Assembly (NCBI RefSeq): GCF_006385135.1
Contig: NZ_CP041025.1
Location: forward strand, 3,565,501 to 3,629,500
DNA length: 64,000 nt
DNA from: Paremcibacter congregatus
GTDB taxonomy: Bacteria > Pseudomonadota > Alphaproteobacteria > Sphingomonadales > Emcibacteraceae
Reading direction: 5' to 3'
The first letter of the stretch is position 1, and the number at the start of each line of letters is the position of its first letter. Shown here in pieces: positions 1 through 60,822 of the stretch. The notes below the pieces were generated by a model, which was not told the DNA's origin, made no database searches, and saw nothing but the letters and a program-made list of their open reading frames with translations. The position numbers were made by a program, and so were the translations under genes.

Positions 1-517
1 CTGGATCGGCGACCGGGATATCGCGGTGCTCACCCTGCTCTATGGTGGAGGCTTGCGGATTTCGGAGGCTCTGGGGCTCAATGGCCGCGACTGGCCCGAA
101 CCGGGCGCCAATGGCGATATGCTGACCGTGCGCGGCAAACGCAACAAGGAACGGCTGGTGCCGTTGTTGCCGGTGGTGACGCAGGCGGTCGAGGCCTATC
201 GCCGCAGTTGCCCCTATGGCCTTCTCCCCGACGGGCCGTTATTCGTCGGCGCCCGCGGCGGCCGCCTCAATGCCCGCATGATACAGCTTTCAATGGAAAG
301 ACTGCGCGCCCGTCTTGGCCTGCCGCCGTCCGCCACCCCCCACGCCCTGCGCCACAGTTTCGCCACCCATTTGCTGACCAAGGGCGGCGATCTGCGTACG
401 ATACAAGAATTGCTCGGCCATGCGTCTCTGGCCACCACCCAGCATTACACCGAGGTGGACACCGCCTATCTGATGGATGTCTATCGCAACGCCCACCCGC
501 GAGCGCGGGAAGAGTGA
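1..517 (+). CDS. xerC: Tyrosine recombinase XerC, 3' part only
   Basis: The reading frame is open from the left edge (phase starting at base 2), so the N-terminal SAM-like domain and first part of the catalytic domain lie outside the window. What is visible is the catalytic domain of a tyrosine recombinase. It has the first catalytic Arg in GGLRISEAL, the catalytic Lys in RGKRNKER, the HALRH motif (His and second Arg), GHASLATTQHYT (third His) and the nucleophile Tyr. The C-terminal end AHPRA resembles chromosomal XerC of alphaproteobacteria. XerC acts with XerD at dif to resolve chromosome dimers in the cytoplasm. An integrase of a mobile element is less likely because no mobile genes follow, but the missing N-terminus limits certainty. 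Confidence 0.82.
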   Translation, partial: WIGDRDIAVLTLLYGGGLRISEALGLNGRDWPEPGANGDMLTVRGKRNKERLVPLLPVVTQAVEAYRRSCPYGLLPDGPLFVGARGGRLNARMIQLSMERLRARLGLPPSATPHALRHSFATHLLTKGGDLRTIQELLGHASLATTQHYTEVDTAYLMDVYRNAHPRAREE

Positions 518-6563: not shown

Positions 6564-6738
6564 GGCCGAAATTTTTACGCCCCGCCCCTTGAATTCAATC
6601 CTTCATGTCCCATATCTAATATGTAGTTCGGGCCCTTCAATAGCTTGTCACACCTTCCTCAGATGACTATTGAACCGGACTATGTGGTGAGAGGTTTTCC
6701 CTCCCCCTTCCTCTCACAAGTGCTTATTGCACAACACT

Positions 6739-6770
6739 GCCCGGTTCAGAAAATGGACCGGGCCTTTTTT
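6739..6770 (+). terminator. Rho-independent terminator
   Basis: GCCCGGT (6739–6745) pairs with ACCGGGC (6757–6763) and is followed by a six-T run. It lies about 175 bases after the ABC-F gene and before the next gene on the same strand, so it separates the two transcripts. Confidence 0.8.
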
Positions 6771-6837
6771 ATGGATATCTCCTTGAGTCTGCCGCCCTGA
6801 AGGCTTAACTATAAGACAGTTTGATAAAGGATGGCTT

Positions 6838-7419
6838 ATGGACGACGACTTTGAAATTGACGCACTGGAAGAATATCCCACTCTGGTGCTGGTGGCGCGT
6901 TTCGCCAAGCTGATCCCGCGCACTGACTGGTTCCGCTATGTAGGGGAACCGCTGGAAAAGGAAGTGGTCGAGAAATCCCGCGCCTATCTGGACGCTCTCG
7001 GCTTTCCCGAAGCCACCCCGGCAGAGGTCGAAGACTGGCAGGAAGCCGCCGCCTCTCTCGAAACCAACGACTGGAACAGCCCGTTCTGGGAAGTGGAGCA
7101 ACAGTTGCTCTCTGCCTTGTCCGTGGAAATTACCGAAACCCTGGATCCCCAGTTACTGGAGATGGTGCTCGCCCATGTGACCAGCGTCGCGTCGGAATAT
7201 GTCGGCGAAGGCGTTATGGCCGCGGCGGAACGCTGGGGCATGGAAGATGAAGAACTGCTCAAGGCCGCCATCGGTGAAGGCGTTCAGGCCTGCTATCAGG
7301 CGGCGTTGGTGATTGCCGCCGGGGTCGGGGACGATCATCCTTTCGCACTCAAATATCAGCTGTATGAAACCGGCTGGTGGCCGCTTGGTGTGATGGGCAA
7401 CAGCTTCAATATCTTTTGA
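6838..7419 (+). CDS. Hypothetical acidic protein, 193 residues
   Basis: I do not recognise the family. The protein is acidic and soluble, with many Glu/Asp and Trp residues (for example EDWQEAAASLETNDWN and the C-terminal ETGWWPLGVMGNSFNIF). It has no signal peptide and no clear membrane helix. A segment around residues 115–165 (LAHVTSVASEYVGEGVMAAAERWG and on) looks all-helical. AAGGATGG just upstream is a good ribosome-binding site, and codon use matches the neighbours, so the gene is probably real. It is flanked by terminators at 6739 and 7462 and so is transcribed alone. Confidence 0.7.
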   Translation: MDDDFEIDALEEYPTLVLVARFAKLIPRTDWFRYVGEPLEKEVVEKSRAYLDALGFPEATPAEVEDWQEAAASLETNDWNSPFWEVEQQLLSALSVEITETLDPQLLEMVLAHVTSVASEYVGEGVMAAAERWGMEDEELLKAAIGEGVQACYQAALVIAAGVGDDHPFALKYQLYETGWWPLGVMGNSFNIF

Positions 7420-7461
7420 ATTCACGTTTAATGATCTAGCCAAGTGTAACCTGAACCGCAG

Positions 7462-7498
7462 TACCACCTTTGGAACATATTTAGGTGGTATTAGTTTT
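7462..7498 (+). terminator. Rho-independent terminator
   Basis: TACCACCT (7462–7469) and AGGTGGTA (7483–7490) form an eight-base stem with a 13-base loop, followed by TTAGTTTT. It lies 43 bases after the hypothetical gene ending at 7419. It isolates that gene from the metallo-beta-lactamase gene at 7539. Confidence 0.7.
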
Positions 7499-7538
7499 AT
7501 CGATTCATTTTTTTGAAGAATATGTGAAAGGCTAAAAT

Positions 7539-8351
7539 ATGAGAATGATGTATGTTTTGACGATATTTGTGTTCGGACTCAGCCATAGCCTGACCACCAT
7601 ACAACTATCTGAAGCATATTCCGAAAAGAGTGTTCCTGAACGCACAGAATTTGAACGAGATGGGATTCACTTTAAAAAACTTAGTGAGCTTGTATGGATG
7701 CATACAAGTTATATTCATCTTGAGAAAGGAAGCGTCGTTCCTTCTAACGGCCTCATTATCGTTGCTGAGCATGGGGCGACCCTCGTTGATACCGCCTGGA
7801 ACAACGATCAAACCAAAGTAATACTGAATTGGGCCTATGAAACATTAGGAAGGCGCATAACGTCCGCTGTATTTACCCATGCGCATTCCGATAAGATGGG
7901 TGGTGTGCAAGCTCTCAAAAATTACGGTGTAGCCACCTACGCTCACCCCTTGACAAATGCTCTTGCGCCAGACCGTGGCTTGGTTTCTGCCGAATTCGAT
8001 CTTCTCGTTTTGGAAAATGGAACGGCAAAAGTGTCAGGTGAGCGCGCCGCGAATGACCTTACGCTGCTATCTGTTTTTTATCCGGGCCCAGGGCATTCGG
8101 AAGACAATATAATTGTTCACGTGAAAGGAACAAATATCCTTTTTGGAGGGTGCCTTGTTCGGCCGGGTGGTGCAACATCACTGGGAAATACTTCAGATGG
8201 ATCGATACCGCACTGGGACAGCAGCATTGAAAATATATCACAGCGCTTCCCAAAGGCAAATATTGTGATTCCAAGTCATGGAGTACCTGCCGGACGGGAT
8301 TTGTTGTCTCTTACCATTGAGCTTGTTCGCAAAGCGAGGCAGGCTGAATAA
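7539..8351 (+). CDS. Subclass B1 metallo-beta-lactamase, NDM-like
   Basis: A 270-residue MBL-fold protein with an N-terminal signal peptide (hydrophobic residues about 3–20), so probably periplasmic. All B1 zinc ligands are present: His114, His116 and Asp118 (THAHSDKMGG), His186 (YPGPGHSEDN), Cys205 (LFGGCLVR) and His247 (PSHG). Further blocks recall NDM: VWMHTSY, SNGLII, VDTAWNNDQT, VFYPGPGH and TSLGN. The residue that is often the substrate-binding Lys224 of B1 enzymes is Arg208 here. B1 enzymes hydrolyse penicillins, cephalosporins and carbapenems. The gene is visibly more A/T-rich than its neighbours and stands alone after a terminator, which suggests acquisition. No integron or IS is visible. 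GAAAGG lies upstream of the ATG. Activity against drugs is inferred. Confidence 0.88.
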   Translation: MRMMYVLTIFVFGLSHSLTTIQLSEAYSEKSVPERTEFERDGIHFKKLSELVWMHTSYIHLEKGSVVPSNGLIIVAEHGATLVDTAWNNDQTKVILNWAYETLGRRITSAVFTHAHSDKMGGVQALKNYGVATYAHPLTNALAPDRGLVSAEFDLLVLENGTAKVSGERAANDLTLLSVFYPGPGHSEDNIIVHVKGTNILFGGCLVRPGGATSLGNTSDGSIPHWDSSIENISQRFPKANIVIPSHGVPAGRDLLSLTIELVRKARQAE

Positions 8352-8504
8352 ATTTTGCGGAGATATATGGTGCGTTAAGTCATGGGTATATTGTTGGATC
8401 CTGGGGGGCGTTGTTTAAAAAGATACCAGTTGAACTTGATCCATTCAACGCGTGCCCTTAAAGTCTATCTAAATTAGTCATGTTAAGGTATTGAGGAAAC
8501 GACG

Positions 8505-9302
8505 ATGGGCAGAATCCGACTGGTGACCTGGAACATCAACAGCGTGCGCGCACGCCTCGACTCCGTTGAAAAACTGGTCGATAAATATAATCCCGACGTG
8601 ATCTGTTTTCAGGAAACCAAGGTCCAGGATCATATGTTTCCGGGGAAATTCTTCCATGAACAGGGCTATAGCCATCATGCGATTGCCGGCCAGAAATCCT
8701 ATAATGGCGTGGCGGTGATGTCCCGGGTACCTCTGCTGAATATTGACCGCCGCGACTGGTGCGCCAAGGGCGACGCCCGCCATGTGGAGGTCACCCTGCC
8801 CGGCAATATCCAGCTGCATAATTTCTATGTGCCCGCGGGCGGCGACGAACCCGACCCGGCGATCAATGACAAATTCGCCCATAAGCTCGATTTTCTGGAT
8901 GAAATGACCGCCTGGTCCGGCGACCTGCCCAAGGATTCCCGCGCCATTCTGGTGGGAGATCTGAACATCGCCCCCTATGAAAGCGATGTCTGGTCCCATA
9001 AAAAACTGCTGAAAGTGGTCAGCCACACGCCGATCGAATGTGAAAAAATGAATACTCTGATGCAGGCCCATGACTGGTTCGATGTCATGCGTCATTTTGT
9101 GCCGGAACCTGAACGGCTCTATAGCTGGTGGTCTTATCGCGCCCGGGACTGGCGCGCCGCCGACAAGGGCCGACGTCTGGATCACGTCTGGACCAGTCCG
9201 GACCTGAAAGACAGCATGACGTCAATGGCCGTGTTGGAAGACGCCCGCGGCTGGAACAAACCGTCGGATCACGCCCCGGTCATGGTGGAAATCACTATTT
9301 AA
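8505..9302 (+). CDS. xth: Exodeoxyribonuclease III
   Basis: A 265-residue member of the exonuclease/endonuclease/phosphatase superfamily. Motifs in order are LVTWNINSVRAR (Asn metal ligand), CFQETKV (Glu metal ligand), YNGVAVMS, LVGDLNIAP (catalytic Asp and Asn), RLDHVWTS, and the C-terminal SDHAPVMVEI with the catalytic His. It repairs abasic sites and trims 3' ends in the cytoplasm. GAGGAAAC upstream of the ATG supports the start. It converges with the Trm112-type gene only eight bases away, with no terminator hairpin seen between them. Confidence 0.93.
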   Translation: MGRIRLVTWNINSVRARLDSVEKLVDKYNPDVICFQETKVQDHMFPGKFFHEQGYSHHAIAGQKSYNGVAVMSRVPLLNIDRRDWCAKGDARHVEVTLPGNIQLHNFYVPAGGDEPDPAINDKFAHKLDFLDEMTAWSGDLPKDSRAILVGDLNIAPYESDVWSHKKLLKVVSHTPIECEKMNTLMQAHDWFDVMRHFVPEPERLYSWWSYRARDWRAADKGRRLDHVWTSPDLKDSMTSMAVLEDARGWNKPSDHAPVMVEITI

Positions 9303-9309
9303 AGCGCCC

Positions 9310-9537
9310 TCACCCCTCATCCAGCGGACGGGCTTCTTCCACCAGCATGATGGGAATGCCATCCCGCACCGGAAAGGCCAGCTTGGCCTTGTCACTGATC
9401 AGTTCCCCGGCCGCCTCGTCATACCGCAGTACGGTCTTGGTCAGGGGGCAGGCCAGAATTTCCAGCAACTTGGGATCAACCTTCCCGAAATTGATTTTGC
9501 CGGAAGGCTGCTTTTCTGAGGTCTTTGTATCTTGCAT
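9310..9537 (-). CDS. Trm112 family protein
   Basis: A 75-residue small protein of the Trm112/YcaR type, with [20 protein letters not shown] followed by [17 protein letters not shown]. Eukaryotic and archaeal Trm112 activates methyltransferases; the bacterial role is poorly defined. Only one Cys (ACPLT) of the usual zinc-ribbon set is present, as in many alphaproteobacterial members. I chose the ATG at 9537 because the alternative TTG at 9579 would overlap the upstream LON-domain gene and add an unconserved tail. It is the last gene of the CnoX–LON–Trm112 run. Confidence 0.83.
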
Positions 9538-12020: not shown

Positions 12021-12095
<75 letters not shown>

Positions 12096-12130
12096 AAAAA
12101 TATCTTGACCCCACAAGATATTCTGCAAGA

Positions 12131-12152
12131 GCCACCTTCGGGTGGCTTTTTT
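12131..12152 (+). terminator. Rho-independent terminator after tRNA-Gly
   Basis: GCCACC-TTCG-GGTGGC forms a stable six-base stem with a UUCG tetraloop, followed by six T. It is placed 35 bases after the tRNA. Confidence 0.9.
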
Positions 12153-12180
12153 GCGTTTGGGCTCACGTCTTGCCGATATC

Positions 12181-14760
12181 CTAGAAAGTCTTTGATAATG
12201 ACAAGCCCCAGGTCCGTGGCCGATTGACGATTGGCGTATTATTCTCAAACCCCCGTTCCACAAACAAGCGGGCCCGCTCATCCCAGATATTCTCCACAAA
12301 GAATGACACCTCCCAATGGTCAGACGTAACGGAAAAACGCACCATACCCATGTCATATGCCGATGATTTTTCCAGCGGGTGTTTCTGCACCTGGCGGTAA
12401 ATAGCGCCCACATGCTGATAGGAGGCAAATATTCCACCCTCCAGGGCCGATGTCAGGGCAAAAGAATAATCCAATGAAAGAGAATAAGAAAACTTAGGTA
12501 CGCCCGGAACATCATCACCCTTTTTGGCATCAACATTGTCAACATCCTGAGAAAACTCCGCATCGGTATAAGAACCGCCCACGGTAATTTCGAGATTATC
12601 AAACGGAATAAAATGACTTTCCATTTCGATCCCCCGACTGACAGCCCCCCCGGCATTTTCCGTAAAGCCAAAACCGCTCCGCAAACGGCGGGTGCTCTGA
12701 ATATCCGACCAGTCAATATAGAAGACCGCCGCATTTATTCTCATCCGGTTGTTGAACAGGCTGTTCTTGGTTCCGATCTCATAATTCCAGATGTGATCTG
12801 ATTCATATTCCTGTGGCGCCTCACTCAGCCCAATTTCACTCAGGTCACCGCCGCAAAGGTCAGCCGGAATAAAATCATTTGCTCCCCCAAGACGAAACCC
12901 CCGCACAGCCTGAGTGTAAATCAGGTTATCAGGGCCCCATTGATACATCAGATGAAACTTGGGGTTAAGGCCATTCTTGGCGACCACGGTTTCATAGTCA
13001 GAATAGCCCCCGGCAAGAAACCCCGTCGACCAGATGGAATAATCCTGCTTATACTCGAAATAACGCAGACCGGCCGTAACCGTTAACTTCCCGGTCAGAT
13101 CATAACTGCCTTCCATAAAAACAGCCTGCTGCCTTTCGTCAAAAGTCAGCTGTGATTCAAACAAGATATCCTTGCGCCCGTAGGCCTCGCTCAGATTGCC
13201 ATTGGCCGCATCAAAGCCGTAAGCCGGCACAAATTGCTGATATTCCAGCTTCTGATCGGAATGAAAATATCCGATGATCCCTTCAAATTTCTCTCCCTTA
13301 TGCGACAGAAGCCTCGTTTCAAAGGAATAGTTCTTAATACCCGAGGTATTCTGAATATAGAAAGGTACCGGAACAAATCCATTCATCGGCAGGAAATGCG
13401 TGATGTCGTTAGTGTCAATAATACGCCGGTCAAACAGCGATAATGTACTGAAAACTTCCACATCATCATATTCGTAATTCACCGAAGTGCTGTAAATGGT
13501 AAATTTATCCTGATAGGGCTCGGGAACCTCACGGATCTGTTGCAAAATACCGGTTCCCTGATTGATATTGGCCGAAGCGCTGCCCCCCAAATGCGTATTT
13601 TGATGCAATATGGCCGCCGACCAGATCAGGTCCTCCCGGGGTTGAAACCGTAAGGCTATGCGACCGCCCTTTGTCTTTTCCGTATTAACATTCGCTTTCT
13701 GCAAGAAAATATTGTCAATATACCCGCCAAGATTTCGATCATAAGCTGTAAGACGCACCGCCATCTTATCTTTCAGCAATGGTACATTGAGCATGCCATT
13801 CAGGTGGCTGTTTGTGTCGCCCTGCTCCGTTGCTGAAAATTTTCCGGCCAGTTTTGCCGCCAACGTATTGATTTCAGGCTTTTTAGTCAGTATCCGGATC
13901 GTCCCTGACATGGACCCTGCGCCATAAAGTGTGCCTTGGGGTCCCCGTATCACCTCGACCCGATCGACATCGAACAGCTTCAGATCCGGATTAAAACCGT
14001 TATAAGCCACCGGAACCTCGTCAATATAAATACCAACAGTCGCGCGGTTACCCGGTTCATCTCCCGCCGTCACGGAAGTGCCGGCCGTGATGCCACGGAT
14101 CACAATCTTTTGCTGTCCCGGTCCCCGGTCAAGAAACGACAGACTAGGGATTACCCGGGAGTAGCCGCGAAAATCATCCGCCTCCAACTTTTCCAGCCGC
14201 ATCTCGGTGATCGCCTGAATACTTTGGGGGACCTGTTGCAGATTTTGCGAGCGCTTTGCGGACGTGACCAGAATTTCCTCCAGTTGCGGCGACAAATCCG
14301 CATCAGCCAATACGGCAAGCGTCTGCGTTTCACCCGTTATCTTCTGCTCCGGGGGCATTGGGTGGTCAGAGCCAGAGACCGGCGATATTTCGCCCCTTAT
14401 TTTCCGGGTCTCCAGTGCGTTGGGATTTTTGATAACAATAATGGTGCGATCATTGGTGAATTTATATCCTAGCCCTGTATCAGCCAGAATCATATCGAGC
14501 GCTTCCCTGACATCGAAGACGCCATTCAGGCTGCGGGACATCCGCACATTTCCGACAAGATCCTTGGGAAAATAGATCTGACATTTTGCCTGCAGGGCAA
14601 AGGACATCAGCGCCATCGATAATTTTTTATCCGTTATATGGAATTCTTTTTCTTTCGACGGGGACCCGTCAGCAAAGGGTGTCATGAAGAGCACGCCGAG
14701 AGAAAACACGGCAACCCATCTGATGACCATACAAACTGAATGTCTTCCCGGTGAAGACAT
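12181..14760 (-). CDS. TonB-dependent receptor with STN signalling domain
   Basis: An 859-residue outer-membrane receptor. After a signal peptide (about residues 1–33) comes a secretin/TonB short N-terminal domain (about 40–110; KKLSMALMSFALQAKCQIYF, YKFTNDRTIIVIKN). This is the part that contacts a FecR-type anti-sigma factor. A TonB-box-like EEILVTSAKR precedes the plug (PSLSFLDRGPGQQKIVIRGI, VEVIRGPQGTLYGAGSMSGTI), and then the 22-strand barrel ends in SLSKTF with a terminal Phe. It lies directly downstream of fecR and the ECF sigma gene, giving a FecIRA-like cell-surface signalling operon. The plug resembles receptors of the catecholate/sphingomonad type. The substrate is unknown, with siderophore or glycan/terpenoid compounds all possible. 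Confidence 0.9.
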   Translation of the reverse strand: MSSPGRHSVCMVIRWVAVFSLGVLFMTPFADGSPSKEKEFHITDKKLSMALMSFALQAKCQIYFPKDLVGNVRMSRSLNGVFDVREALDMILADTGLGYKFTNDRTIIVIKNPNALETRKIRGEISPVSGSDHPMPPEQKITGETQTLAVLADADLSPQLEEILVTSAKRSQNLQQVPQSIQAITEMRLEKLEADDFRGYSRVIPSLSFLDRGPGQQKIVIRGITAGTSVTAGDEPGNRATVGIYIDEVPVAYNGFNPDLKLFDVDRVEVIRGPQGTLYGAGSMSGTIRILTKKPEINTLAAKLAGKFSATEQGDTNSHLNGMLNVPLLKDKMAVRLTAYDRNLGGYIDNIFLQKANVNTEKTKGGRIALRFQPREDLIWSAAILHQNTHLGGSASANINQGTGILQQIREVPEPYQDKFTIYSTSVNYEYDDVEVFSTLSLFDRRIIDTNDITHFLPMNGFVPVPFYIQNTSGIKNYSFETRLLSHKGEKFEGIIGYFHSDQKLEYQQFVPAYGFDAANGNLSEAYGRKDILFESQLTFDERQQAVFMEGSYDLTGKLTVTAGLRYFEYKQDYSIWSTGFLAGGYSDYETVVAKNGLNPKFHLMYQWGPDNLIYTQAVRGFRLGGANDFIPADLCGGDLSEIGLSEAPQEYESDHIWNYEIGTKNSLFNNRMRINAAVFYIDWSDIQSTRRLRSGFGFTENAGGAVSRGIEMESHFIPFDNLEITVGGSYTDAEFSQDVDNVDAKKGDDVPGVPKFSYSLSLDYSFALTSALEGGIFASYQHVGAIYRQVQKHPLEKSSAYDMGMVRFSVTSDHWEVSFFVENIWDERARLFVERGFENNTPIVNRPRTWGLSLSKTF

Positions 14761-14872
14761 GCCCTTTATTTCCTTTCCCCATCATGCCAGTGTCCGGTTT
14801 TTTATTGATCGATGGCGGTTGCTGCCGCTATGGACACCTCGTGGTGTAAATGCACTTTTATTCTGTATTTTC

Positions 14873-15901
14873 TTATATCGTCTTTTCGAAGATCAAGGTA
14901 AGCAAGGGGGTAACCTGCACAACCTTGATTGGCAGCGCCGCCTCCAGTGCCTCAAGATAAGTGTCGACCTGTTTGGTATTAAATATTCCCCCGCCTTCAA
15001 TATTACCTACCGCAGCATCCACGATGATAATCTTGGAGGAGGTGTAATGATTGAGTTCGGCAACAATCTCGCTTAATTTCATACCGTCAAAAAAGAGATT
15101 CCCACGCTTCCATCCTGTTGTTTTAAGGAGATGTTCTTCGTCCATGACCTCGACAGGGTTGGAACTGGAATCAAGACGCATATGCTGTCCGATCACCAGT
15201 TCACTCCGAGGGGCCACCGCCCGTTCGCTATCCATCTCAAAAGGATTAACCTGGACAATTCCCTCCAGAACCGTAATTTCAACAACGGCCGTTCTCTGAT
15301 TGATGTTAAAGGCAGTGCCCACGGCCCGCACATCACCTTTCTGGGTTGTCACGACAAAGGGCCTGTCTGGGTCCTTGGCGACATTAAAATAAGCCTCCCC
15401 CCTGTTCAGTCTGACATGGCGACGGGCATCAGAGAAATTAACCACCAGCTCCGTATCCGTATTCAACAGGACCTCTGAACCATCAGACAATCTGATTGAA
15501 CGGCTGTTGTTATAATCGGTAGTATAATAATTATCCGGCGTTTCCACCAAAAGAGCCCCCCCTTTCACTAGAATAAAAGACAGCAACAAAGCCGCGGCCA
15601 GCGTCACTGCTTTTCTATAAAAGGCACTCGTCTTATTTTCCAAGGGTTTGCCCCGCGCCTCGATCAGGTGACTTAACTCGTCAGGCAGAGTTTCAGGCAC
15701 CGCCTTGTATACCCCGCTGAGTATATCAAAATCGTGGGATAAACCCAGAATATCGTCATAGATATCCCGGTGGTGGGGATTGCGCGCCAACCATGCCTGA
15801 AACTCTTCCCGGTTCTGACTGGTCGCCTCATTTGATTCCAGCAAAACGTGCCACTCAAAGGCCCTTTTTTTAGCCTGCTCAAACTCGCTCGTATTATACA
15901 T
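14873..15901 (-). CDS. FecR-like anti-sigma regulator
   Basis: A 342-residue inner-membrane protein. It has an N-terminal DUF4880-type cytoplasmic segment (FEWHVLLES, FQAWLARNPHHRDIYDDI), one transmembrane helix near residues 100–120 (VTLAAALLLSFILVKGG), the FecR domain (SDGSEVLLNTDTELVV, RGEAYFNVAKDPDRPFVV, AVGTAFNI) and a C-terminal STN-like domain. It would bind the partner sigma factor in the cytoplasm and the receptor's STN domain in the periplasm. It overlaps the end of the sigma gene by eight bases. It belongs with the receptor gene that follows. Confidence 0.92.
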   Translation of the reverse strand: MYNTSEFEQAKKRAFEWHVLLESNEATSQNREEFQAWLARNPHHRDIYDDILGLSHDFDILSGVYKAVPETLPDELSHLIEARGKPLENKTSAFYRKAVTLAAALLLSFILVKGGALLVETPDNYYTTDYNNSRSIRLSDGSEVLLNTDTELVVNFSDARRHVRLNRGEAYFNVAKDPDRPFVVTTQKGDVRAVGTAFNINQRTAVVEITVLEGIVQVNPFEMDSERAVAPRSELVIGQHMRLDSSSNPVEVMDEEHLLKTTGWKRGNLFFDGMKLSEIVAELNHYTSSKIIIVDAAVGNIEGGGIFNTKQVDTYLEALEAALPIKVVQVTPLLTLIFEKTI

Positions 15902-16487
15902 TTTTATCTGCTCTCACGCACTGTTGGGAAACGGTATATTCAATGGCCACATCGAATTTGATGACATTGTCATTTTTGATCATCAGGTTTGTCTTGCAAG
16001 TACACAATGCCTTGGCCAGATGTTTTTCCACCGTTTTCACTGAAATGGACATTTCCAAGGCAATCTCCTTATAGGACAAATTGTGGAACTTCCTTAAGAT
16101 AAAGGCCTGGCGGCATTTGGGCGGCAAATCTATGATGACTTCCGACAGCATCTGTAAATATTGTTTCCGTAAGTAACTTTCCTCAGGATTTAGTCCTGTA
16201 CTGTTTTTTTGTTCGATTTGTTCTTCTGCATAACTGGCATTTTTAACACCCCTTATGGTTTTGCGGCGGATATTGTCTGTCGCCAGATTATTGGCGATCG
16301 TGAAAATAAAGGCCCGCGGATATTCAATCGCCTCGATCTCCTTAATATTTTGCAACCGCACGAAAGTTTCATGCAAAATATCCTCTGCATCCTCTCTGGA
16401 CTGTATTTTCCGGTATAGAAAACGCCTTACCGAGGGGCCATACTCCCGGTAAAGAACCTCCACATACTCCCTGCTCTTTTTTAACAT
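15894..16487 (-). CDS. FecI-like ECF sigma factor
   Basis: A 197-residue ECF sigma factor. Region 2 reads YREYGPSVRRFLYRKIQSREDAEDILHE and continues through YPRAFIFTIANNLATDNIRR. Region 4 holds LPPKCRQAFILRKFHNLSYKEIA and the HTH SISVKTVEKHL. The order sigma–FecR–TonB receptor fits a FecI regulon that responds to a ligand at the outer membrane. AAGGGAGA upstream of the ATG is a good ribosome-binding site. The C-terminal 25 residues after region 4 are slightly longer than usual. Confidence 0.92.
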   Translation of the reverse strand: MLKKSREYVEVLYREYGPSVRRFLYRKIQSREDAEDILHETFVRLQNIKEIEAIEYPRAFIFTIANNLATDNIRRKTIRGVKNASYAEEQIEQKNSTGLNPEESYLRKQYLQMLSEVIIDLPPKCRQAFILRKFHNLSYKEIALEMSISVKTVEKHLAKALCTCKTNLMIKNDNVIKFDVAIEYTVSQQCVRADKNV

Positions 16488-59868: not shown

Positions 59869-60822
59869 TTAGCCTTCCATATCCTGCCACATTTTTATAT
59901 CGCGTTCGGCTGTCCAGATGCGGGGATCGCGCACCCCCTGACATTCGTCATAGGCGCGGGTCACATCAAACGGCAGACAATGTTCAAAGATCACCCAGTG
60001 ACCATATTTCGGCGACAGGGCCTCCATTGTGGCTTTATAGGTATCGCGCAGGTTCATGCCTTTCGCCTGACAGGCCTTGACCGAGCCATACATATCACTG
60101 AGGAAATCACGGGTTTCCTCAATCGCCTGCCGGCATGTATCGGCGCTCATCAACGCGTCACCACGGCCCGGCACCAGTTTCTCCGCCTTGAATTCGAGCA
60201 GATTGTTCAGGGTTTGCGGCCAGTCTTCCAGATAAGCGTCGCCGGTATAAGGCGTCGCACCGAATTCCACCAGATCACCGCTGAACAGGACTTTATCCTG
60301 CGGCAGCCAGGCGATGGTGTCGCCCTTGGTATGGCCGCGACCGACCTGTTTCAGTTGCACTTCGACGGAGCCTAGCCAGATGGTCATCTCGCCGGTAAAC
60401 GTCTGGGTCGGCCAGGTCAGGCCCGGCACGCTTTCTATGGCGTCAAACAGCCGTGGGAACCGCTCATATTCAGATTTATAATCCTGCTCGCCGCGTTCCA
60501 CGATCAGATCACGGGTGTCGTTGCTGGCGATAATATGCTCAGGCTCATACCCGGACGCGCCCAACACCCGAACCGCATGATAATGGGTCAGCACCACATA
60601 TTTGATCGGCTTGTCGGTCACGGTGCGGATCTGGTCGATCACCAGTTGCGCCATCACCGGGGTCGCCTGGGTATCCAGCACCATCACGCAGTCATCCCCG
60701 ATGATCACGCCGGTGTTGGGATCACCCTCGGCCGTGAAGGCATAGGCATGCTCGGACAGCTTGGCAAAGGTGATTTTCTTTTCTTCCAGATCGGCCTGTG
60801 AAGCAAATTTCTTTTCGGACAT
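59869..60822 (-). CDS. MBL-fold hydrolase with altered metal motif
   Basis: A 317-residue metallo-hydrolase-like protein without signal peptide. The usual HxHxDH reads THYHAVRVLGA, so the Asp is Val84 and the following His is Arg85. Other ligands appear to be present: GRGHTKGDTIAW (His), SGDLVEFGATPYTGD (Asp) and the C-terminal segment with EHCLPFD. The missing Asp and His imply a mono-metal or otherwise changed site. It is the first gene of the trio with the monooxygenase and DUF2783 genes. A related set occurs in several proteobacteria; the substrate is unknown. AGGGAAAG precedes the ATG. Confidence 0.85.
   Translation of the reverse strand: MSEKKFASQADLEEKKITFAKLSEHAYAFTAEGDPNTGVIIGDDCVMVLDTQATPVMAQLVIDQIRTVTDKPIKYVVLTHYHAVRVLGASGYEPEHIIASNDTRDLIVERGEQDYKSEYERFPRLFDAIESVPGLTWPTQTFTGEMTIWLGSVEVQLKQVGRGHTKGDTIAWLPQDKVLFSGDLVEFGATPYTGDAYLEDWPQTLNNLLEFKAEKLVPGRGDALMSADTCRQAIEETRDFLSDMYGSVKACQAKGMNLRDTYKATMEALSPKYGHWVIFEHCLPFDVTRAYDECQGVRDPRIWTAERDIKMWQDMEG

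Follow-up and report, generated by a model that had tools for sequence, protein, structure and literature searches.

A horizontally acquired subclass B1 metallo-beta-lactamase gene is proposed for the chromosome of Paremcibacter congregatus

The locus studied here raises the question of what kind of enzyme the gene bla of Paremcibacter congregatus encodes and how the gene came to lie where it does. We analyzed a stretch of 64,000 nucleotides (the window). An initial annotation had described bla in this window as a chromosomal, A/T-rich metallo-beta-lactamase gene of subclass B1 with NDM-like blocks, and as a possible environmental reservoir or ancestor lineage. In our preferred reading, to which we give a probability of about 0.83, bla is a horizontally acquired single-gene insertion that encodes a functional, exported, two-zinc B1 enzyme of the NDM/FIM group. 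The features of the locus are listed in Table 1.

Table 1. Features of the bla locus, in window positions; residues are those of the bla product.
Feature	Position	Strand	Basis
Left flanking gene, conserved; 193 aa, without Pfam or NCBIfam match under the limits applied	6838..7419	+	Profile search
1,085-bp stretch with bla as sole gene, between genes that adjoin in relatives	7420..8504	.	Junction comparison
10-bp hairpin upstream of bla, 13-nt loop, weak T-rich tail; possible weak terminator	7460..7492	+	Folding z-scores
bla, subclass B1 metallo-beta-lactamase, 270 aa, frame intact	7539..8351	+	Profile score, sequence and structure matches
Signal-peptide-like N-terminal region, no Cys, no lipobox	7539..7616	+	By eye; low pLDDT
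L3 loop region, residues 59-70, apex K63-G64-S65	7713..7748	+	Alignment
HAHSD motif, zinc ligands His114, His116, Asp118	7878..7892	+	Alignment
Zinc ligand His186	8094..8096	+	Alignment
Zinc ligand Cys205 through Arg208 (standard position 224)	8151..8162	+	Alignment
Zinc ligand His247	8277..8279	+	Alignment
Right flanking gene, exodeoxyribonuclease III (exoIII)	8505..9302	+	TIGR00195 above cut-off

The start of bla was placed at the first ATG past an in-frame stop codon, a TAA two codons ahead of it. The product scored 231.1 bits against the B1 equivalog model NF033088, whose cut-off is 200. It scored 220.3 bits against the FIM model NF000437 (cut-off 590) and 194.4 bits against the NDM model NF000259 (cut-off 580), and it was far under every other named-family cut-off among the best 25 of 61 models listed. 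Pfam Lactamase_B gave 52 bits. By these family cut-offs, the bla product is an intact metallo-beta-lactamase of subclass B1, as first described, and is neither an NDM nor a FIM enzyme. bla is the sole place in its own genome above the B1 cut-off, with two further places at 80 and 57 bits. It sits on one contig of 4.19 Mb, in agreement with a chromosomal location. The window also encodes a second protein of the metallo-beta-lactamase fold (59869-60822, minus strand). Its best model was quinoprotein relay zinc metallohydrolase 2 (120 bits, cut-off 280), and with 82 bits it stayed below the B1 cut-off of 200.

The nearest sequence in the PDB was FIM-1 (6v3q; E 3.8e-63), which is also the nearest named enzyme by sequence. 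It shows 49% identity over the aligned part and, like the bla product, has an arginine at standard position 224. However, FIM-1 is known as an acquired Pseudomonas aeruginosa enzyme (PMC7930500), and bla scores under the FIM cut-off. NDM shares about 44% identity and the same fold (predicted for bla), together with similar THAHxDKMGG, FYPGPGH and FGGCL blocks. In contrast to bla, it has Lys224 and a lipobox, falls in another clade and is plasmid-borne. The blocks VWMHTSY, DTAWNNDQT, THAHSDKMGG, FYPGPGH and FGGCL, which had been likened to NDM, are all present in the bla product, although the aligned FIM-1, Kordiimonas and 6v54 proteins have similar blocks too.

In standard numbering, the B1 ligands are His116, His118 and His196 together with Asp120, Cys221 and His263 (PMC5637372). 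All six are found in the bla product at the residues named by the initial annotation, and the same six ligands are present in 51/51 aligned proteins. Asn233 and Arg224 are also kept. Arg208 had been pointed out as standing where many B1 enzymes have a lysine. The arginine at position 224 is indeed there, but lysine is not the norm outside the NDM clade. Among the 51 aligned rows, residue 224 is R in 32, K in 18 and Y in VIM-2; K occupies it in 14/14 rows of the NDM clade, whereas R does so in 32/37 rows outside that clade. Arg224 is also known from DIM-1, GIM-1 and TMB-1, and enzymes that carry it show lower efficiency on some substrates, penicillins most of all (PMC4599830).

An AlphaFold2 model of the bla product was built from 29 aligned proteins and had a mean pLDDT of 90.8, with a low-confidence N-terminus. 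The best 50 matches listed by Foldseek against the PDB were NDM-type structures and the Erythrobacter litoralis enzyme 6v73 (rank 38), with sequence identities of 40-43%. FIM-1, the top match by sequence, was absent among these 50. The top match had a TM-score of 0.81 by query and 0.90 by target. The predicted model supports a B1 fold and a standard two-zinc B1 site. Judged from its family, the bla product would hydrolyze beta-lactams in a zinc-dependent manner and may act as a carbapenemase. Zn1 (held by His114, His116 and His186) and Zn2 (Asp118, Cys205 and His247) would activate a water molecule, the activated water would open the beta-lactam ring, and Arg208 probably binds the substrate carboxylate.

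The N-terminal region resembles a signal peptide by eye, which suggests export to the periplasm. The sole cysteine of the bla product is the ligand Cys205, so NDM-like lipidation is impossible. Given that a lipobox is missing, the enzyme is most likely soluble in the periplasm. The signal peptides of its three nearest relatives (L085, L086 and L087, of the Woeseiaceae family) carry LASC, LASC and LCSC, the last one outside the strict consensus [LVI][ASTVI][GAS]C. A missing lipobox is no rarity in the wider set: by a loose pattern, a lipobox occurs in 22/51 aligned rows, and the Kordiimonas proteins are without it. Because the three relatives may form a sister group of the window gene, loss of the lipobox in the bla lineage and its gain in the other three are both possible. 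In NDM-1, lipidation provides stability under zinc starvation and favors vesicle secretion (PMC12326980; for vesicle secretion also PMC6689000).

The same three relatives have the ligands, R224 and the LVR and SLGNT blocks of the bla product, but in addition to the lipobox-type Cys they have an aromatic-Gly pair in the L3 loop, and the bla product is without both. Over the 51 rows, an aromatic residue (W, F or Y) stands at column 64 of the L3 apex in 35, and Gly at column 65 in 42; the exceptions besides the bla product include G at column 64 in two rows and S at column 65 in one. Since relatives on both sides retain the aromatic-Gly pair, the K-G-S apex looks like a change that arose in the lineage of the window gene. 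L3 shapes substrate choice, and positive charge in L3 limits some cephalosporins in CJO-1 and CIM-2 (PMC12326980). By analogy, we expect an active enzyme with an altered cephalosporin profile; the change at the tip could mean altered or weak activity.

The lost aromatic-Gly apex would also suit a B1-fold protein that is no longer mainly a beta-lactamase and is decaying or repurposed. So would the end branch of the window gene in the tree described below, which is 0.61 long, compared with 0.16, 0.44 and 0.45 for L085, L086 and L087. However, the ligands, Arg224 and Asn233 are all kept and the frame is intact. Compared with L085, pN is 0.27 and pS is 0.81 (saturated), and the amino acids of the bla product are under constraint relative to L085. 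Elsewhere, 76 novel B1 genes were described from genomic and metagenomic sources, and 18 of the 21 tested hydrolyzed imipenem (PMC5637372). We regard decay or repurposing as unlikely and prefer a functional enzyme. As synonymous change relative to L085 is saturated, it yields no date for the gain of bla.

To compare the junction in relatives, both flanking genes were searched in 32 genomes of the host family, own genome included. The locus of the exoIII orthologue was obtained from 27 of the 31 relatives, and 12 of these 27 share the host genus. The other four gave no match or a distant paralogue only. The flanking genes lie 11-93 bp apart (stop codon included) in 25/27 relatives, across five genera. 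In the window, the distance is 1,088 bp with the stop codon and 1,085 bp without it. The relatives' short intergenic DNA is too diverged to set exact insertion borders. Locus L052 (genome G018) has a 378-bp gap with another reading frame inside (about 2287-2645, YbjQ-like by eye), and given this frame the junction varies in more than one lineage. In L028, the left gene and exoIII are on different contigs, but next to the left gene, contig C242 carries a 31-residue piece of exoIII that agrees with a short gap in this genome as well.

A B1-level match was found in none of the 15 same-genus genomes, 9 of which are less than 90% complete; they gave one weak match (29% over 105 residues). Among 16 other genomes of the family, G022 had a 31% match on a 3.7-kb contig, within a 722-aa reading that has a second domain, and G020, G021 and G022 gave weak matches (E 1e-6 to 6e-8).

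For base composition and codon use, 20 spaced 20-kb stretches of this genome (400 kb in all) served as reference; in them, 246 ORFs of 200 aa or longer were called mechanically. The GC content of bla is 0.465 against 0.531 +/- 0.040, with 10/246 genes at or below it. Its GC3 is 0.415 against 0.601 +/- 0.066 (1/246 at or below), and its codon fit is -0.066 against 0.120 +/- 0.068 (2/246 at or below). Both flanking genes have a GC3 of 0.69 and good codon fit, which bears out the earlier remark that bla is A/T-richer than its neighbors. Within the window, bla has the lowest GC3 and codon fit among 48 ORFs, some of them false ORFs. The short junction in relatives, found without bla, and the atypical codon use argue together for acquisition.

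One scan of a collection of 84,980 species gave 42 loci, with two Woeseiaceae MAGs on top. The closest found were L085 (CAMYJB010000015.1), L086 (JASJBG010000060.1) and L087 (CAJXJW010000008.1), with 62%, 53% and 50% identity in the best segment and 56%, 52% and 50% in the alignment. The genome of L087 falls in the family of L085. We take Woeseiaceae, as well as Pseudoteredinibacter, Cellvibrionaceae and Arenicella, to be Gammaproteobacteria. In the family of L085 and L086, 4/107 genomes had a match at E 1e-40 or better. Three of these are in the clade of the window gene; the fourth, L146, is the same gene as L097 by contig position and is outside that clade. With the own genome included, matches were found in 19/396 genomes of the host order sample at 1e-30 and in 3/398 of the phylum sample at 1e-40. 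Gene neighborhoods differ among the window, L085 and L086, and DNA similarity to L085 is confined to coding sequence (window 7653-8347, 64%). L085 has a GC3 of 0.55. bla is thus AT-richer than both L085 and the host, and the DNA would have come from a source AT-richer than both; the sampled Woeseiaceae are probably not the direct donor.

A 51-row tree was taken from 63 extracted proteins, with the window gene, FIM-1 and 6v54 added. Duplicates of equal identity and composition were removed (L090, L127, L129, L130, L132, L109, L110, L111, L113, L114, L115 and L116), as were the fragments L105 and L118 and the fused 722-aa reading L005. Later loci were left out: L142 (35%), L143-L145 (second readings of L085-L087) and L146. 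The window gene was grouped with L085, L086 and L087 at 97/91, and its place among those four had 89/60. When 11 long or distant rows were left out, the 40-row tree gave the same four at 97/90 and placed the window gene outside the other three at 92/46. Constraint tests were run on groups named after the tree had been seen. Grouping the window gene with FIM-1 and L093 gave a p-AU of 0.0715, which speaks only weakly against it, and a clade of the window gene with FIM-1 was absent from the best trees. Grouping it with the Kordiimonas genes of the host's order gave 0.205.

The latter value leaves room for kinship with Kordiimonas L002 and L003 (50% identity), and so for a bla already present in the ancestor of the family or order and since lost from the relatives sampled, with a composition shaped by drift. 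Loss in relatives was also the reading given for elbla2 in Erythrobacter (PMC5770381). However, an ancestral bla would need repeated clean losses that left the short gap seen in 25/27 relatives of five genera. Its codon use is foreign, whereas both flanking genes are typical, and the best tree joins it to Gammaproteobacteria. We consider ancestral presence highly unlikely. Vertical descent within the order, raised by the 50% Kordiimonas homologue, was set aside on junction and composition. The tree by itself allows the Kordiimonas grouping; transfer is argued chiefly from the junction and codon use. In the preferred reading of a gain, bla would have reached an ancestor of the strain from a donor outside the sampled genomes, one with a gene akin to those of Woeseiaceae. 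It would have inserted between the conserved gene and exoIII, co-directional with them.

A lone gene of foreign composition and cassette-like size might have arrived as an integron cassette or on some other recognizable element. A simple pattern found no attC-like core-site pair on either strand of 7300-8700. No second copy of the stretch was found in the genome, where besides the stretch itself there was just one 20-base, chance-like match, and repeats near the ends of the stretch are short and imperfect. Phage records gave no match to bla, and among 22 pattern matches in one scan of viral contigs none was a relative of bla. A tyrosine recombinase model had 13 matches in the genome. One of them, at window 14-460, is some 7 kb away from bla, and nothing was found that ties it to the gene. 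The chance that such an element brought the gene is, in our view, as slim as that of ancestral presence. For the preferred single-gene insertion, a fuller account can be sketched in which a marine gammaproteobacterial B1 gene moved bare, free of any element, into an alphaproteobacterium, where it settled between two co-directional genes in their own direction, and its product became soluble, with L3 rebuilt and the substrate profile shifted. Taken as a whole, this account is speculative and rather doubtful.

A terminator had been said to bracket the gene, and this was not borne out. A scan of 6700-9400 found none within 7420-8504. Its sole plus-strand site was 6739-6763, ahead of the left flanking gene, and site numbers in the scan were near chance. 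The hairpin upstream of bla, which may be the terminator noticed before, is only mildly unusual: z was -2.68 for a 51-nt piece picked after the hairpin had been seen, and -0.62 for the 129-nt leader. A sigma-70-like promoter was not found on the plus strand of 6700-9400. bla would presumably be expressed, and transcription may read through from the left gene.

The suggestion of an environmental reservoir holds in a general sense only, as 2,710 plasmid records had a match and every one was below 60% identity. That bla represents the ancestor lineage of NDM and the source of mobile NDM, as its identity to NDM and the common blocks might suggest, is almost certainly wrong: NDM-1 is placed at 100/100 in a clade of 14 rows that also holds Erythrobacteraceae and order-mates, the window gene is outside this clade and has R where all of its rows have K224, and grouping the two is disfavored (p-AU 0.0211). 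The account of where NDM came from is unchanged by bla.

In the NDM/Erythrobacteraceae clade, a lipobox-type Cys was seen by eye in 13/14 rows, L112 (NDM-1) and L123 included, and the strict consensus fits 8/14 rows. Other rows with a lipobox-type Cys were L100, L103, L117, L119, L121, L122, L124, L131, L133, L134 and L135. The source of the NDM lipidation sequence is termed unknown in the available part of PMC12326980. The lipobox in its relatives of this clade suggests that NDM inherited the sequence. Our literature search found nothing joining lipobox, NDM-1 and Erythrobacter.

Two known systems resemble bla. ElBla2 of Erythrobacter litoralis is likewise a B1 enzyme encoded on the chromosome of a marine bacterium; its gene is flanked by genes that relatives conserve and lies away from mobile elements (PMC5770381). 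It raised MICs in E. coli BL21 (PMC5770381). Its authors find it closest to NDM-1 and favor loss in relatives (PMC5770381), whereas for bla we favor gain. PST-1 of Pseudomonas stutzeri DSM 10701 is also a chromosomal B1 enzyme, and its region is missing from five other strains; in the part of PMC5637372 available, no known integron or transposon is reported there, as with bla. It differs from bla in clustering with KHM, SIM and IMP and in that its region carries further genes (PMC5637372). PST-1 provides an earlier case of a gain specific to one strain with no known element involved (PMC5637372). bla adds a clear case in which an environmental bacterium gained a probable carbapenemase gene, while 25/27 of the relatives examined keep the junction short and free of genes.

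Ocean metagenomes contain distant homologues (PMC5895761), and chromosomal B1 genes of marine bacteria are already known. We found no literature on a metallo-beta-lactamase in Woeseiaceae, and none evidently related for Kordiimonas or for an Emcibacter beta-lactamase; bla and its Woeseiaceae kin seem undescribed in the literature searched.

Contigs of Pseudoteredinibacter, Cellvibrionaceae and Arenicella (L088, L089, L091, L092, L099 and L104) carry genes that belong, like those of Woeseiaceae, to one large clade together with NDM and FIM; chromosomal-looking genes of gammaproteobacterial hosts thus share this clade with them. NDM and FIM would belong to group B1-1, for which the available part of PMC5637372 gives Alpha- and Deltaproteobacteria as the only hosts. 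A contig of Clostridium puniceum (L125) carries a 38%-identical B1 gene with a GC of 0.31, against 0.30 for the contig, and a long branch in the tree. Elsewhere in the window, within 12021-16487, a tRNA gene is followed by an AT-rich block (ORF GC 0.42-0.49) with an ORF that is TonB-receptor-like by eye, and this block may represent a small tRNA-associated island.
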